From contig CAMZEU010000004.1 in assembly GCA_947305865.1 (NCBI GenBank), forward strand, positions 1-47,357: DNA of 47,357 nt, written 5' to 3'. A program made the position numbers and the translations under genes. Source of the stretch: an uncultured Clostridia bacterium (GTDB lineage Bacteria; Bacillota; Clostridia; Christensenellales; CAG-917). The notes beneath the pieces were generated by a model. It ran no database searches. It saw only the letters and a list, made by a program, of their open reading frames with translations, and was not told the DNA's origin. This document shows, one piece after another, positions 3 through 46,040 of the stretch; position 1 is the stretch's first letter, and every line of letters begins with the position of its first letter.

Positions 3-2537
3 GTAGACTATGATGTTGAAGAGGCTTATGTTTATCTAACACCAATTAGTGTTGTATATGACGAAGATTTATCTTTTGAAAGAAGATTAATAAAGACTAT
101 AAGCAACGAAGCATTTGTTCAATATGCAGGATTTGTTATGAGACCAGGTAAAGATTTCATCTTTACAACTAGGATGTCTCCATTAATAATGCAAGAATCT
201 TTAATTTGTAGTTATTCAATCGGAGAGGCTTCTCCAATAGAAACCGCTTTAGAAGATGGCCAAGTTGAAATCTTTGGCAATTCAGCAACTCAAACAGCTA
301 TTATGTTCCAAATCGTAGATAGCACAGGAAGAATTGCAGGAAGAAAGATAATAGACCTTACACAAACATCCTCATTTGAAGTATCCTTCCATACAAACGG
401 AGATTACAATTTAACAGAGGGTTATACTATTGAAACAACATTAGATGCAACTCCAACACTTGGAGAGGGTGAAGGATATAGACTTATAGTAAGAGATGAA
501 AACGATAAGTTCCTTGGTATGGGTTCGACCATAACAGACGTTCTTGAAAACCAATCTCTAGTAATTCCAGATTTAACACCAACATTCTATAATGCAGCTC
601 TTGCATGTGCAAAGACTGTTAATGGTGTTGAATATATATTTGAAAACTCCGCAAACACAGATGGATGTGAACACGCATTTTCTCCATTTGAAGAAGGACT
701 ATTAAATTTTGATGCTGAAAGTAGCACTGTTACATTTGGTGTTTCTGTTGGAGACATTTATTCCACAAATGAAATAGACATAAAGGCCACTATAACAAAT
801 AGTTATCAAAGTGGAGACCCAGATATATTCTATCTAAACGTTCCATCTGGATTAACAGAGAGTAATACATCCAATGCATTAACTTCAGCAAAATGGACTA
901 ATTTAACCGGCACAGAAATTATTATTACAAATTCTGCCGGAACAATTACATATGGAAGATATACGTATTCTAAGGCTACCACACAAGTTAATGTTGCAAC
1001 TCCAGATGTTAAGAATAGAGAATTAGTATTAAGTGCAACAATTCTAGATTGTCCAGATGAAGGATCTATAAACCATGTTGGATTTAATAGTGGATTTGGT
1101 TCTTCTGGTGGTGCAATTATAAGTGATATTATTCCATATACGGCTGTACAAGATGGAGATAATTGGGTTGTTACTATAGATGAACTTAAGGATACAACAC
1201 TCGTTGGAGGATGGGAATATTCATTCTTGTTGGGTGATTTAGAAATCATGGTTACAAACTTCGTTGGAACTAATGAGGATTTAAATATTTCAGCAAAGGT
1301 AAATTATTATTTAGATGGCGAATCTGCTCATGCTTCAGAAGATGCTATTAAAGTTTATGTAGATGGTTATCCATCTCTTAACGGAAAAGAAATCAACCTG
1401 CAAAACTGGTCTTTAGCATTCTATTCAGATAGTAATTATTCATCTGTTCTTACATTGTCTAATGAAGAAAATAGTATTGGACAAACAAACATGACAGACT
1501 GTGCTTTGTTATATTTACAAAACCCACTTTCAAGTGCTTTCTATTATAAGATGACATATGGCGCAGAAAATGATGTATTAGGTAGTAGTGTAATTAACTT
1601 GCCAACAGCAGCATATGATGAGACAGCTAATGCGGAAGATACGGATGCTCCAACTTGTTATGGTACATTTGTAGCTAATGCTGTCACATTCAATTTAAGT
1701 GGAACAGAAATTGTTTCTACTAATATGTATAACACATATAACATCACAACAAATCTTACAGGAATACATTATCAAAGCAGAGTTGCACGTTTGGCATCTT
1801 CTAACTATGAAATTTATAGAACAGACTTTGATTCAACTAAACCATATATGGCTGTAGAAGATATCCCATATGAAAGCAGTTATGAATATGATATTTATAC
1901 ATTCAGAACTGTTGAAATAGGTGGAGTGGAATACGAGATATATCTTGGAAAAGCATTAGATAACTATACTGTAAGCACAATGATAGTAGATGGTTCATAT
2001 AATGCTGCACATGGTGTCGTATCCGGACCAACATTAACAGATAATGGCTCAGATCAACAATACATAGATATGGAAGTAGTTGCAGATTATCTGGTATCTG
2101 GTACTTCTATAGAAATTCACTGGGGCAACAATGACACAATTGAGATTAATCCTCAAACTGTAATGGGACTAGAATATGCCGCACATGATTATGATCAAAG
2201 TGTAGATGGTTTATGCTCTGTAATTATTAATAACCACCAAGCAAAACCAATAGAGAGTTGTCAAGTAGGAATTCAAGTTATATTCTCAAATTATTTGTCA
2301 GATAAGACGGGAAGCAAGGTAGTAGTTAAACACCAAGTAAGAACTGGTGCTACAGAAATGGCAGCATACAATTTAACCACAAAGGGTTGTGTATTTGCAT
2401 TAGAAGATTCAAATTTAAGAGATGCTAATGGCGATACAGTTCAATTCACGGAATATCAATTAGGTGTATTAGGAACAGCAAATTTATATGCGGTAGATAG
2501 TGATGTAATTTTAATTACAGAACATGATATTGCATAA
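3..2537 (+). CDS. Hypothetical large protein, 5'-truncated by window edge
   Basis: Reading frame of ORF 138..2537 stays open to base 3 (VDYDVEEAYVYLTPISVVYDEDLSFERR...); Ser/Thr/Asp/Tyr-rich, few Lys/Arg; no recognised domain. Confidence 0.75.
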   Translation, partial: VDYDVEEAYVYLTPISVVYDEDLSFERRLIKTISNEAFVQYAGFVMRPGKDFIFTTRMSPLIMQESLICSYSIGEASPIETALEDGQVEIFGNSATQTAIMFQIVDSTGRIAGRKIIDLTQTSSFEVSFHTNGDYNLTEGYTIETTLDATPTLGEGEGYRLIVRDENDKFLGMGSTITDVLENQSLVIPDLTPTFYNAALACAKTVNGVEYIFENSANTDGCEHAFSPFEEGLLNFDAESSTVTFGVSVGDIYSTNEIDIKATITNSYQSGDPDIFYLNVPSGLTESNTSNALTSAKWTNLTGTEIIITNSAGTITYGRYTYSKATTQVNVATPDVKNRELVLSATILDCPDEGSINHVGFNSGFGSSGGAIISDIIPYTAVQDGDNWVVTIDELKDTTLVGGWEYSFLLGDLEIMVTNFVGTNEDLNISAKVNYYLDGESAHASEDAIKVYVDGYPSLNGKEINLQNWSLAFYSDSNYSSVLTLSNEENSIGQTNMTDCALLYLQNPLSSAFYYKMTYGAENDVLGSSVINLPTAAYDETANAEDTDAPTCYGTFVANAVTFNLSGTEIVSTNMYNTYNITTNLTGIHYQSRVARLASSNYEIYRTDFDSTKPYMAVEDIPYESSYEYDIYTFRTVEIGGVEYEIYLGKALDNYTVSTMIVDGSYNAAHGVVSGPTLTDNGSDQQYIDMEVVADYLVSGTSIEIHWGNNDTIEINPQTVMGLEYAAHDYDQSVDGLCSVIINNHQAKPIESCQVGIQVIFSNYLSDKTGSKVVVKHQVRTGATEMAAYNLTTKGCVFALEDSNLRDANGDTVQFTEYQLGVLGTANLYAVDSDVILITEHDIA

Positions 2538-3807: not shown

Positions 3808-4608
3808 ATGAGCGCAACAGGAAGTGCAATTTTAGGAATATCTTTAATATTTGCTTGTACTATTATAGGTGCTGCTTTAGTATTCTTCTTTAAGGGAAAA
3901 GAAATCAGTCCTAAATTAAATCAAGTATTTACAGGTCTTGCAGCTGGCATTATGCTTTCAGCAGCATTCTTTTCATTAATGCTTCCAGCAATTGAATCCG
4001 AGATATCATATATGCCTGTTTGGGCAGTTGTAGGTATTTCAATATCAATTGGTGCTGTATTCCTTTGGGGAATAGATAAGATAGTCCCACACTTCCATGC
4101 TGGAGATAATAAAGAAGAAGGTATAAAGACTTTGTCTTTAAGTAGAACCTCAAAAATGTTTCTTGCTGTTACTATTCATAATATTCCAGAAGGTTTAGCA
4201 GTTGGTATTGCATATAGCGCAGCCCTTGCTGCATGGACTGACGCTTCATCTAACGCACTTTGGGGAGCATTAATATTAGCAATCGGTATTGGTGTTCAAA
4301 ACATCCCAGAGGGCGCTGTAGTGGCTCTAGCAATAAAAGGTGAGACTGGTTCAAGTGTTAAAGGCTTCTTGCTAGGTGTTTGTTCTGGTGTAGTAGAACC
4401 AATTGCAGCTGTTATAGGTTTATTCCTTGCAATGCAAATTCAAGTTGTAATGCCTTGGGCATTAGCATTCGCTGCTGGTTGTATGTTATACGTTATTGTT
4501 GAAGAAATGATTCCAGAAATGAAAAGTGATACCGTACACCATCATGGTGTTTGGGCATTCATTATTAGTTTCATTGGAATGACAATAATGGAAATTGCAC
4601 TAGGTTAA
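3808..4608 (+). CDS. ZIP family metal transporter
   Basis: HNIPEGLAVGIAYS and QNIPEGAVVALAI ZIP motifs, multiple TM helices. Confidence 0.93.
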   Translation: MSATGSAILGISLIFACTIIGAALVFFFKGKEISPKLNQVFTGLAAGIMLSAAFFSLMLPAIESEISYMPVWAVVGISISIGAVFLWGIDKIVPHFHAGDNKEEGIKTLSLSRTSKMFLAVTIHNIPEGLAVGIAYSAALAAWTDASSNALWGALILAIGIGVQNIPEGAVVALAIKGETGSSVKGFLLGVCSGVVEPIAAVIGLFLAMQIQVVMPWALAFAAGCMLYVIVEEMIPEMKSDTVHHHGVWAFIISFIGMTIMEIALG

Positions 4609-5765
4609 TAATCGTAGTCTATATTTACAATATAGTTATAATCCGGATATTTTTCTCTTAAAGCATTTTTTACACTATCACAAGTTCCATGTGGGTCTTT
4701 ATCATCGAAGTCTATAACTAAATCAAAGAACACGATTTTTTCTTCTTCGTTTACATAGAAACCATGAGTTTGAAGAATATGTGGTTTATCTTTTGTAAGT
4801 TCGTCTAAATCTGCCTTATTATCTCTAGAAATTTCTGTGCTTGTATTATCTGCATATACTCCAACTGTCATTATCATGTTGTATTTGAAATACATATGTC
4901 CTGCAATTTGCTTCTCAAGAGCCATCATTTCTTGGGCATTCATATCATCTCGTACAGCAATATGAACAGAACCAATGTATTTATTTGTTCCATAGTTATT
5001 TAGAATCAAATCATAAACGCCTTTAACTTCCTCAAATTGGGCTATATCTTCTTTTACTTTTCTTGTGGTTTCATCATCTATACGAATACCAATGATTAAA
5101 GAGAGGGATTCTTTTATAATTCCAAAACCGGATTTAAGAATGAATAAGCCAATGATTATACCTACATAACCTTCTATGTAGAAGTGTCCGTATAGTGCAA
5201 CTATTGCAGAAATTAATGTGCCGGTGGAGAGGATTGCATCAAATAAAGCATCCATACCACTTGCTTTTAGTGTATCACTGTTGAGTTTCTTCGCTTGAAT
5301 TCTATAGAATATGCCAAGTCCAAGTTTTATAAAAATAGCAACACCAATAATTACAAGGGATATAACTGTATAGGATGGCAATACTTTAGTATTGAAGTAT
5401 TCTATTATGGATACTATAGATTCATAAATAGCCATACCACCAGCAAATAAAATGATAGCACCAATAATAGTGGAAGTGAGGTATTCAATTCTTCCATGTC
5501 CATAAGGGTGCTTTCTGTCTGGTTTTTTATTTGAAAGTTTTGTTCCAATGATGGTAATAATGGATGAGAGGGCATCTGTTAAGTTGTTTAAAGCATCCAT
5601 GATAATTGCAACGGATCCTGCCAAGAAACCAATTACAGCCTTTATAGCAACTAAGACAACGTTGCCACCTATACCAACGATACTTGTTCCAACAATACCT
5701 TTTTCTCTAGCTTTAATGACTTTGTCTAAATCGACATTTTTGTTCTCTAAATCTAATTTTTCCAT
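4605..5765 (-). CDS. Cation diffusion facilitator (CDF) family transporter
   Basis: SVAIIMDALNNLTDALSSIITIIG, KKPDRKHPYGHGRIEYL; start chosen at the ATG with AGAGGTAA SD (MEKLDLEN). Confidence 0.92.
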   Translation of the reverse strand: MEKLDLENKNVDLDKVIKAREKGIVGTSIVGIGGNVVLVAIKAVIGFLAGSVAIIMDALNNLTDALSSIITIIGTKLSNKKPDRKHPYGHGRIEYLTSTIIGAIILFAGGMAIYESIVSIIEYFNTKVLPSYTVISLVIIGVAIFIKLGLGIFYRIQAKKLNSDTLKASGMDALFDAILSTGTLISAIVALYGHFYIEGYVGIIIGLFILKSGFGIIKESLSLIIGIRIDDETTRKVKEDIAQFEEVKGVYDLILNNYGTNKYIGSVHIAVRDDMNAQEMMALEKQIAGHMYFKYNMIMTVGVYADNTSTEISRDNKADLDELTKDKPHILQTHGFYVNEEEKIVFFDLVIDFDDKDPHGTCDSVKNALREKYPDYNYIVNIDYDY

Positions 5766-5795
5766 AATTACCTCTAATAACAAATTGTATTATCA

Positions 5796-7466
5796 TTAAG
5801 ATAATAATGCAACGGCTATTGTGCAATAAATTATTAATGAGAGAGCATCTACTATAGTTGTAATGAATGGACTTGCAACTACAGCAGGGTCTAACTTGCA
5901 TTTCTTTGCAAGCAATGGGAGTAAACAGCCAACCATCTTCGCAATAACTACTGTGATGAATAATGCAAGGGATACTATAGCACAACGAATAGGAGTGTAG
6001 TCATGGTATCCAAAAGCAAGATTATCTAATAACATAAGTTTTCCGAAGCAAGCAACTGCTAGGGTGGCGCCAAGCAACATAGAAACACGTATTTCTTTCC
6101 ATAGGACTCTAAATACATCTTTCGTTTCAACTTCACCAAGAGCTAAGGAACGAATAACTGTAACGGAAGCTTGTGAACCAGCATTACCACCCGTATCCAT
6201 AATCATAGGAACACAAGCAAACAATACAGCACTAATTGCACTTAATTTTGCTTCATACTTATTTATAATAAGTCCTGTGAAGGTTGCACTAACTAAGAGA
6301 ACAAGCAACCAAGGAATTCTGTTCTTCCAAATGCCAAATACACTTGTTTTAAGGTATGGTTTATCACTTGGACGGATAGCGTTCATCTTTGCGATATCTT
6401 CCGTGTTCTCTTCTTGCAAAACATCAATAGCATCGTCAACTGTAACAATACCAACTAATCTGTTTTCATCATCTACAACTGGTATTGCAAGGAAGCCATA
6501 TTCTGCAAGTTTTCTAGAAACATCTTCTTGGTCGTCTGTGGTATGTGCATAAATAACGTTTTCTTCCATGATATCTTCAATAAGGGTATCTGGGGAGGCG
6601 AGCATCAAGTCTTTTGCAGATACAAGACCAATAAGTTTATTTGTTCTATCTACAACATAACATGTGTAAATTGTTTCCTTGTTAATAGCATTTTTTCTAA
6701 TCTTTTCAAATGCATGTTCAACTGTGATATCTGGATAGAAGTACATGTACTCAACAGTCATGATAGAGCCAGCGCTATCTTCTGGGTACTTAAGAATTTG
6801 GTTTAAGTATTTTCTCTTTGCTGGATCTATTTTTGCAAGAAGTCTTTTTACAACATTGGATGGCATTTCTTCCACGATATCTGCCATATCGTCAACGAAC
6901 ATCTCGTCTGTAACTTCTTTCAATTCCTGGTCTGTTAATCTATTAAGTAATTCTTCTTGTGTATCTGAATCCATTTCTACGAAAGCCTCAGCAGCTGCAT
7001 CCTTTGGAAGAAGTCTAAAGAGGATAGGCATATCTTCTGGAGGAGTATTTTCGAAAATATCTGCCAAGTCGTTTTCGTTCATAGATGCGAGTAATGGCTT
7101 AAGAGTAGTGAAGTTCTTTTCTTTAAGGAGGAGGTTAATTTCTTCATAGTCTACAATCTTAAGAGCGGTTTTTTCTGGCAAGTCTTCAATGATGTCAACT
7201 TTGTCTTCTGCATCTACTTCTTCTAGGAATTCATCCAATTCTTCAGTATTCAAGCTGTCAATAATTTTTTGCTTGGTATCTGGTTCCAATTCAATAAGTA
7301 CATCAGCAAGGAAGTCGCTTTCAAGTTCCTTACAGATATGGATTAAAGTAGCATCATCTAATTCTTCTAGAATAGATGCGGCAAATCTTGCATTTAATTG
7401 AGAAAGTTCTTCTGCAGCAAGAGAATAATTGCCTTCTTTCAAAAGTTCAAGAATTCTTTCCTTCAT
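5796..7466 (-). CDS. mgtE: Magnesium transporter MgtE
   Basis: N domain helical repeats, CBS pair (AGSIMTVEYMYFYPD..., LIEDIMEENVIYAHTTDDQEDVSRK), TM domain PMIMDTGGNAGSQASVTVIRSLALGE. Confidence 0.97.
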   Translation of the reverse strand: MKERILELLKEGNYSLAAEELSQLNARFAASILEELDDATLIHICKELESDFLADVLIELEPDTKQKIIDSLNTEELDEFLEEVDAEDKVDIIEDLPEKTALKIVDYEEINLLLKEKNFTTLKPLLASMNENDLADIFENTPPEDMPILFRLLPKDAAAEAFVEMDSDTQEELLNRLTDQELKEVTDEMFVDDMADIVEEMPSNVVKRLLAKIDPAKRKYLNQILKYPEDSAGSIMTVEYMYFYPDITVEHAFEKIRKNAINKETIYTCYVVDRTNKLIGLVSAKDLMLASPDTLIEDIMEENVIYAHTTDDQEDVSRKLAEYGFLAIPVVDDENRLVGIVTVDDAIDVLQEENTEDIAKMNAIRPSDKPYLKTSVFGIWKNRIPWLLVLLVSATFTGLIINKYEAKLSAISAVLFACVPMIMDTGGNAGSQASVTVIRSLALGEVETKDVFRVLWKEIRVSMLLGATLAVACFGKLMLLDNLAFGYHDYTPIRCAIVSLALFITVVIAKMVGCLLPLLAKKCKLDPAVVASPFITTIVDALSLIIYCTIAVALLS

Positions 7467-7507
7467 AATTAAAGTAAGTCAGAGATTATCTACAAAGAAA
7501 ATATAGA

Positions 7508-7576
7508 TTAAAAGTTATTGGAACAAGCCAAACAACTTCGATAAGGTACATCTTCTTCACATAAGTGATAGTTCAT
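7508..7576 (-). CDS. Putative 22-codon leader peptide upstream of mgtE (MNYHLCEEDVPYRSCLACSNNF)
   Basis: ATG at 7576-7574, stop TAA 7510-7508; SD AAAGGAGG at 7592-7585 with 8-nt spacing; good promoter just upstream; mgtE itself has no visible SD. Confidence 0.6.
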   Translation of the reverse strand: MNYHLCEEDVPYRSCLACSNNF

Positions 7577-7619
7577 GACTCGTTCCTCCTTTAAGAATTA
7601 CACTACTGTGTTTTTGCCT

Positions 7620-7648
7620 ATTCTAACACCTTAATTTTTTTATGGCAA
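7620..7648 (-). promoter_or_regulatory. Sigma-A-type promoter for leader ORF/mgtE
   Basis: TTGCCA (7648-7643), 17-nt spacer, TAGAAT (7625-7620) on minus strand. Confidence 0.7.
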
Positions 7649-7715: not shown

Positions 7716-8909
7716 TTATTTGTAAGACTCAATAAGTTCCTTAAATGCAGGAAGGGAACGCTTAATCATAGCGTTGCTTACACAATATGCTGCTCTTACA
7801 TATCCCTTTGCTCCGAAGTCATCTCCTGGAACTAGTAATAATCCATAGTTCTTTGCACGGTTAGAGAATGCTCTGGCATCTGGCTCTGGTGTTTTAATGA
7901 ATAAATAGAATGCACCATCTGGTCTTACACAAGTGTAACCCATTTCTGTCAGAGAATTATAAAGAAGGTTTCTATTTTCTTCATATGCCTTTACATTTGG
8001 AAGATCATTTACACAGTCCATAATAACATTTTGCCAAATGGATGGAGCACAAACATAACCCATTGCTCTTCCAGCACCACAAACAGCTGCATATAGTTCA
8101 TCTGCACCTTCTGCTTTTGGAGAAACTGCAACGTAACCAATTCTTTCACCAGGGAGAGAAAGGGATTTGGAGTAACTATAACAAACAACTGTATTGTCAT
8201 AGTAGTTCATAATATATGGAACCTTTACATCTCCATAAACAATTTCTCTATATGGTTCATCTGCAATAATATAAATAGGATTTCCAAATTCTTTAGATTT
8301 CTTGTTTAGGAGTGTAACAATTTTCTTTATTGTTTCTTCACTAAATACAGCACCACTTGGATTATTTGGACTATTAACAATTATTGCTTTTGTATTCTTG
8401 TTAATTGCTTCTTCGAGGGCATCAAAATCCGGACCAAAATCTGGTTCGCTATATGGTACAACTACAGGTTTTCCACCGGCAGATAAAGTAAATACTTTAT
8501 ATTCAGGGAAGAATGGAGCAAGAATAATAAATTCATTATTGCCAGAGTTTAATCCTCTTAATGAAATACAAAGGGAAGCAGCTGCACCACAAGTCATGTA
8601 AATATAATCTTCATTAATATCTACACCGAATCTTGTTTTAATGTTATTTGCAACAGCTTTTCTAACTCTTAAATCTCCTGGAGCAGAAGTATATCCATGA
8701 ACTAGAGTAGTGTCTGGGATAGCCACTATTCTTTCTAAAGACTTTCTTACACTTTCTGGAGCAGGAACATTTGGATTGCCTAGAGAATAATCATAAACCT
8801 TATCTGCACCAACTTCTAAGGCTCTTTTCTTTCCGAATTCAAATAATTCTCTAATGGAACTTCTATTTGTTCCGTAGTTTACCATATCTTGGTTGAATAA
8901 ATTGCTCAT
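7716..8909 (-). CDS. PLP-dependent class I/II aminotransferase
   Basis: KAIIVNSPNNPSGAVFSEE, YIIADEPYREIVYG, VCYSYSKSLSLPGERIGYV; SD AGAGGTG before ATG 8909. Confidence 0.93.
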   Translation of the reverse strand: MSNLFNQDMVNYGTNRSSIRELFEFGKKRALEVGADKVYDYSLGNPNVPAPESVRKSLERIVAIPDTTLVHGYTSAPGDLRVRKAVANNIKTRFGVDINEDYIYMTCGAAASLCISLRGLNSGNNEFIILAPFFPEYKVFTLSAGGKPVVVPYSEPDFGPDFDALEEAINKNTKAIIVNSPNNPSGAVFSEETIKKIVTLLNKKSKEFGNPIYIIADEPYREIVYGDVKVPYIMNYYDNTVVCYSYSKSLSLPGERIGYVAVSPKAEGADELYAAVCGAGRAMGYVCAPSIWQNVIMDCVNDLPNVKAYEENRNLLYNSLTEMGYTCVRPDGAFYLFIKTPEPDARAFSNRAKNYGLLLVPGDDFGAKGYVRAAYCVSNAMIKRSLPAFKELIESYK

Positions 8910-45860: not shown

Positions 45861-45889
45861 TTGACAAACACTTAGTGGTTAATTAAAAT
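45861..45889 (+). promoter_or_regulatory. Dedicated rplJL promoter
   Basis: TTGACA-N17-TAAAAT directly upstream of the L10 leader. Confidence 0.65.
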
Positions 45890-45895
45890 AACCAC

Positions 45896-46026
45896 ACAAA
45901 TATTCCGAAGACAGCAAGTGTTGCAAAACATAATTCGAAAGAGCTTGCCGAGGATAGACACTTAATCATGATATTATAGGATTGACGTCTTTTCTCGTGT
46001 TTTCGGAAGAAGGCGTCAAATTTTAT
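45896..46026 (+). promoter_or_regulatory. L10 (rplJ) leader with intrinsic attenuator
   Basis: Conserved CCGAAGACAGCAAGTG...GAGCTTGCCGAGG; then GACGTCTT...AAGAAGGCGTC plus TTTTATT (45982-46026). Confidence 0.88.
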
Positions 46027-46040
46027 TAAGGAGGCAAAAA

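Follow-up and report, generated by a model that had tools for sequence, protein, structure and literature searches.

MgtE is a main route of Mg2+ entry in many bacteria, and in Firmicutes the textbook control is the M-box riboswitch. In the window analyzed here, a 47,357-nucleotide stretch of DNA from an uncultured Clostridia bacterium, mgtE has no Shine-Dalgarno (SD) sequence of its own and is preceded on the same strand by a 22-codon open reading frame (ORF) that has a strong one. Does this small ORF control mgtE, and if so, how? The original prediction had proposed leader-peptide control, and the promoter, SD, ORF and SD-less mgtE that it described were all found, correct to the base. The parts of the locus, including the helices discussed below, are as follows.

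7620-7648, minus strand: sigma-70-type promoter TTGCCA-N17-TAGAAT of the leader-mgtE transcript (TTGCCA at 7648-7643, TAGAAT at 7625-7620), arranged alike in the congeners L002 and L003
7585-7592, minus strand: SD of the leader ORF, AAAGGAGG, with an 8-nt spacer to the ATG at 7576
7508-7576, minus strand: leader ORF of 22 codons, MNYHLCEEDVPYRSCLACSNNF, from ATG 7576 to TAA 7510-7508, with CGA-AGT as the codons of its RS core
7576-7586, minus strand: 5' arm of helix P1, GGAACGAGTCA, from the SD end to the A of the AUG; supported by covariation
7520-7530, minus strand: 3' arm of helix P1, TGGCTTGTTCC, ORF codons 16-19; supported by covariation
7547-7558, minus strand: 5' arm of helix P2, GAAGAAGATGTA, the EEDV codons; supported by ORF middle-intergenic covariation, with a weaker extension at 7565-7570
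7494-7505, minus strand: 3' arm of helix P2, TATATTTTCTTT, intergenic; supported by covariation, with a weaker extension at 7487-7493
7486-7501, minus strand: 5' arm of predicted helix P3 (anti-mgtE-start), with 13 nt in common with the P2 arm
7457-7472, minus strand: 3' arm of predicted helix P3, over the mgtE AUG and AAGGAAA
7476-7480, minus strand: GACTT (GRCTY block), complementary to RAGTC at the leader start
5796-7466, minus strand: mgtE, encoding a 556-aa Mg2+ channel/transporter, without its own SD (Pfam PF03448, PF00571, PF01769)

The leader stop lies 41 nt from the mgtE ATG at 7466, with no SD-like sequence between them, and the Pfam domains MgtE_N, CBS and MgtE confirmed the identity of the gene product. 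Transcription of mgtE appears to start from a promoter of its own, since the aminotransferase gene upstream stops at 7716 and is followed, at about 7693-7660, by what reads in the window sequence as a terminator-like hairpin and T-run. The genome is incomplete (1.3 Mb), and its relatives are metagenome-assembled Clostridia from rumen and gut, one of them labelled Christensenella. The window MgtE is a long form containing two stretches of MgtE_N, whereas in most other MgtE proteins of the order, short forms of about 450 aa, the match begins only near residue 108. Next to mgtE, positions 3808-5783 hold further genes of a metal-transport cluster: a cation-efflux (CDF) gene lies about 12 nt after mgtE on the same strand and converges, with a 4-nt overlap, on a ZIP-family transporter gene. 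Elsewhere, positions 138-2537 encode a 799-aa protein without any Pfam match, and an ordinary ribosomal protein L10 leader (RF00557, L10_leader; 45887-46032) was the sole Rfam match in the window at the gathering threshold.

Comparison of mgtE upstream regions among relatives, a check proposed with the original prediction, showed that the ORF is conserved in both congeners and in dozens of other genera. Both congeners carry the SD-ORF unit upstream of mgtE; the L003 peptide is identical to that of the window despite three synonymous differences, and the L002 peptide differs at two residues. In the 72 non-redundant leaders collected, the ORF has 17-40 codons, and in 56 of them a promoter-like site lies at most 95 nt upstream, compared with 3.5 expected from shuffled sequences. 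Shared features of the peptides are a start of the M-D-x-[G/H] type, acidic residues in the early part and a core resembling [V/I]-[P/G]-x-R-S, which reads EEDVPYRS in the window and EGVPRS, DDIPRS, GDEVPRS or DNIGRS in relatives. We divided them into subclasses (or classes) under names of our own, of which the following are examples.

Subclass III, that of the window: MDVHLCDGDNIGRSSMAWYLA, MDNHRCEEDSVGRSCLALSGKLHFI, MNYHLCEEDVPYRSC
Subclass II: VKGRSS...AD
Subclass I: MDAGSSSTG
More distant leaders: MDDGARCQAKEGVPRSRR, MGDGVRCKTKDDIPRSRR, MDAGERWHETDDAVPRSR
Leaders from other orders of the class: MDTGGSSAVPGRSS, MDNIPGRSSLI, MDAGSSSGTNPDGR

Asp and Glu make up 16% of residues 2-14 but 5% of later residues, a threefold enrichment, and an acidic residue shortly precedes a Pro in 39 of the 72 leaders. 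Because this trend runs through the family together with the recurring [V/I]-[P/G]-x-R-S core, the EEDVP segment singled out in the original prediction is not an accident of the window genome, although in some members the early part holds a single acidic residue, as in MDKPRSSFGINKLARPF. The further suggestion that the Cys and His residues might report another metal was not supported, since the conserved half of the peptides shows no enrichment of Cys (3.1% versus 4.2%). A literature search of open-access journal articles found no paper on an mgtE leader peptide. The window ORF belongs to an apparently undescribed family of leader ORFs that precede mgtE in many gut Clostridia.

Several features of these ORFs suggest that they are coding. 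The annotated frame is open in all 72 leaders as against 25 and 5 for the other two frames, a comparison that is somewhat favourable because the presence of an ORF was part of the choice of loci. Two further signs are independent of that choice. Where Asp2 and Gly4 occur, in 33 leaders, the third codon positions vary almost freely. The codons of the R-S core are CGA-AGT in 27 cases and CGA-TCG in 7, which means that Ser is kept across unrelated codons. CGA accounts for 62 of 116 Arg codons in leader codons 2-17, 6 of 67 later in the leaders and 58 of 853 in mgtE; this preference for one particular rare codon is compatible with either a programmed pause or a nucleotide constraint. A conserved start codon, SD and in-frame stop stand upstream of one and the same gene, and we infer that the leader ORF is translated.

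We next consider RNA structure, which the original prediction had left to be checked by folding. In a permutation test, the duplex energy of each segment pair from the same locus was compared with that of pairs using segments of other lineages (5000 permutations), in an exploratory set of 34 lineages and in a hold-out set of 34 loci collected later, 16 of them from other orders. Pairing of the leader SD/start with the ORF end (P1) gave z=-10.7 in the exploratory and z=-11.7 in the hold-out set, and pairing of the ORF middle with the intergenic region (P2) gave z=-9.1 and z=-7.3, each with 0/5000 permutations as extreme. For pairing of the intergenic region with the mgtE ribosome-binding site (RBS; P3), the values were z=-8.1 (0/5000) and z=-3.6 (1/5000). 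Control pairings ranged from -1.4 to +2.4 in the exploratory set. In the hold-out set, two of the pairings that served as controls had negative values, one between the ORF end and the RBS (z=-4.3, significant) and one between the ORF middle and the ORF end (z=-2.7), which suggests that several partners can probably sequester the mgtE start. Examined column by column, P1 had 79.7% of its cells paired compared with 71.7% after shuffling (0/500) and 42-55% when the arms were slid.

These helices are the strongest evidence for control by the leader, and they were absent from the original prediction. P1 and P2 cross and have no bases in common, and their mutual exclusion is our assumption. In 41 of 43 loci the two helices P2 and P3 overlap by 3 nt or more within the intergenic region, and where mgtE has an SD (20 loci), P3 covers it in 19. 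P3 covaries in classes I and II; in the window's own subclass the permutation test was not significant (z=-0.2), and because mgtE there also lacks an SD, P3 at the window locus is a prediction only, in which the helix would hide the mgtE AUG and AAGGAAA, and the final step of the model below is at its weakest here. Folding of the window leader gave P1 in the minimum free energy (MFE) fold and P3 in a suboptimal fold within 0.3 kcal/mol of it. With the reservation on P3 in the window subclass, alternative structures over the ORF that reach downstream signals were therefore present. An intrinsic terminator formed by P1 and a U-run was seen only in L005, L006 and L012, and because it is not general, we did not adopt transcription attenuation.

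Could the RNA act by itself, with P1, P2 and P3 forming a translational riboswitch or a Mg2+-stabilized switch and the ORF being incidental? The strong covariation would fit such an element, as would the nucleotide-specific choice of Arg and Ser codons, and P1 pairing accounts for much of the C-terminal ORF sequence. However, the start codon, strong SD and open frame are kept in 72 of 72 leaders, Asp2 and Gly4 are conserved with free third positions, and RS is retained with two unrelated Ser codon families. We therefore regard an RNA-only element as improbable.

The missing SD of mgtE suggests two other explanations. Ribosomes might terminate 25-45 nt upstream and reinitiate at the SD-less mgtE, with P1 only setting the level of leader translation. 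Such simple coupling fits class III, in which mgtE lacks an SD in 11 of 11 lineages while the leader ORF has a strong one in all relatives, and it fits the leader-mgtE gaps, which are mostly 25-44 nt. Yet one class III gap is 86 nt, and outside this class most members have a strong mgtE SD and gaps reaching beyond 100 nt but keep the leader, P1 and P2, which makes coupling as the whole explanation unlikely. Alternatively, in the window subclass, RAGUC after the leader SD might pair with GRCUY before the mgtE AUG, looping out the leader and bringing its SD beside mgtE, as SD sharing by looping out is known from phage T4 genes 25 and 38. GRCTY does occur 8-14 nt upstream of mgtE in 11 of 11 class III lineages and can always pair with the leader RAGTC. 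This pairing of the leader start with the pre-mgtE block, suggested by reading the sequence, was not supported by permutation (z=-1.0), although the blocks are nearly invariant and so offer little covariation by which to judge it, and they are absent from the other subclasses. We retain it only as a rival and consider it very unlikely.

If the leader controls mgtE, how does it relate to the M-box? As the original prediction had argued, the 5' leader of the window is too short for an M-box, and it is also coding. RF00380 had no match in the window, nor in the scanned leader loci with the exception of L096; that it did match at other mgtE loci confirms that the model can recognize an M-box in this position. 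No convincing Rfam match to any known RNA family was found on the leaders, at the gathering threshold or at a relaxed E-value. Among 115 mgtE loci of the same GTDB order with usable upstream sequence, 63 had the leader only and 21 the M-box only, the M-box having been recognized by its core pattern in 17 of these and by Rfam in the other 4. One locus had both and 30 had neither; some of these 30 show leader-like fragments that the SD filter missed, so the leader count may be low. With totals of 64 leaders and 22 M-boxes, about 12 loci would be expected to have both if the two were independent. The single such locus, L096, carries an Rfam-confirmed M-box (444-602, minus strand) in tandem with the leader ORF. 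Thus, the leader ORF mostly substitutes for the M-box before mgtE.

The association with mgtE is also specific. We searched 297 genomes of the order with a covariance model derived from 19 leaders. It gave 16 matches with E<1e-4, one per genome, and every one of them lay directly upstream of mgtE. Weaker matches, inspected as possible leader copies before other genes, were ordinary gene starts. Related leaders are also present in other orders of the class. A search over the class for the MDAGSS start gave zero matches with a pattern that required a GGAGG SD, which is not evidence of absence because other orders use a GAGGTG SD and do have the leader.

Taken together, conservation, the frame open in all 72 leaders, the codon-level features, the covarying helices and the near mutual exclusion with the M-box strongly support leader-peptide control of mgtE, and we consider it fairly probable that the leader is a uORF-dependent, cis-acting translational attenuator. 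Ribosome movement on the leader ORF, acting through overlapping hairpins, would then probably set the amount of MgtE. Judged from the promoter position, transcription would start just upstream of the leader ORF, making the leader the first element met by a ribosome. With no ribosome present, P1 would fold the leader start onto the leader 3' end, and the free intergenic arm could pair with the mgtE start region (P3), keeping mgtE low. Initiation at the leader start, or a ribosome positioned over the stop region and P1 3' arm, would open P1, upon which P2 would form, take the arm that P3 needs and free mgtE. Ribosomes over the ORF middle would block P2, so that ribosomes slowed or lost in the segment containing acidic, Pro/Gly and CGA-encoded Arg residues could set the frequencies of P1, P2 and P3. 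Because mgtE in the window subclass lacks an SD, coupling to the leader probably contributes to its translation there as well. The direction of switching is the one that this model proposes. In footprint-masked folding, mean accessibility of the mgtE start was 0.37 with no ribosome, 0.40 with one at the start, 0.34 at codons 10-14 and 0.41 at the stop; these average shifts across loci were small, and the window showed no shift in the expected sense.

The signal is likely to be Mg2+, because the gene is mgtE and an M-box often occupies the same place in relatives. The strictest form of this idea is a sensor based on ribosome destabilization, in which low Mg2+ would cause drop-off in the acidic/Pro segment, refolding of the RNA and expression of mgtE. 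The early acidic enrichment and the acidic residues before Pro would suit such a sensor, as would control of a Mg2+ importer by a leader that takes the place of the M-box, and there are precedents in the EPDP of MgtL (PMC11282234) and in Asp2 and Glu5 of MgtQ (PMC8092293). On the other hand, the acidic/Pro segment is absent or minimal in several leaders, such as L005 and several of the KGRSS class, and the acidic codons of the window fall on the purine-rich arm of P2, where RNA pairing could have produced them as a by-product. It is plausible that EEDVP serves to sense Mg2+, and we hold the strict destabilization sensor as a tentative possibility. It overlaps with the attenuator, which it refines; our grading of both reflects footprint shifts that run in the direction of the model on average but are small and do not extend to the window. 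More doubtful still is the fullest version, a lineage-wide Clostridia family of Mg2+-responsive leader peptides replacing the M-box, in which the ribosome would act as sensor by pausing or drop-off at an acidic-(Pro/Gly)-CGA(Arg)-Ser core and the crossing of P1 and P2 would provide the readout.

Many gut Clostridia appear to control mgtE by a leader ORF in place of the M-box, which would explain mgtE genes without a recognized riboswitch in many Clostridia. If so, ribosome-based Mg2+ control, described for enterobacteria in the papers found, would have arisen independently in another phylum. Whether the ribosome is a common Mg2+ sensor becomes a testable question. The element is short, single-copy and easily placed in reporters.

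Four known systems invite comparison. The "mgtE motif" is a riboswitch candidate found only in Thioalkalivibrio, for which no leader ORF is described (PMC11109978); it too is a structured element upstream of mgtE that encloses the RBS, and it is separate from the clostridial leader. The M-box (ykoK, RF00380) occupies the same position before the same gene in related genomes and presumably does the same physiological job, but the leader has no aptamer match and is too short and coding. MgtL, the leader of enterobacterial mgtA, responds to low Mg2+ by drop-off at EPDP, which relieves Rho-dependent termination (PMC11282234). Like it, the clostridial leader is an ORF before a Mg2+ importer gene with early acidic/Pro residues, enriched over the family though minimal in some members. 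However, MgtL acts through Rho-dependent transcription termination, whereas the covarying clostridial structures point at the mgtE start site, and the peptides are unrelated. The gene downstream encodes MgtE by Pfam and not a P-type ATPase importer, MgtA or MgtB, and by eye neither MgtL nor MgtQ shares recognizable sequence with the leader, which, as far as can be told, is not of mgtL or mgtQ descent.

In its way of working, the clostridial leader is most likely closest to Salmonella mgtQ, an 8-codon ORF in the mgtC-mgtB intergenic region whose acidic codons and mutually exclusive stems open the RBS hairpin of mgtB (PMC8092293). The two differ in that the clostridial leader is unrelated in sequence, has 17-40 codons, comes first on its transcript, precedes mgtE rather than mgtB and, unlike mgtQ, has a preferred CGA-Arg codon and an R-S core. 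The stems of mgtQ are 1:2, 2:3 and 3:4, whereas those of the clostridial leader cross, start with end (P1) and middle with intergenic (P2). Common to both is a tiny ORF, with acidic codons early on, that overlaps stems excluding one another. One of these stems hides the RBS of the gene for a Mg2+ transporter, and the RBS is freed, in the clostridial case by our proposal, through the action of the ribosome on the ORF.
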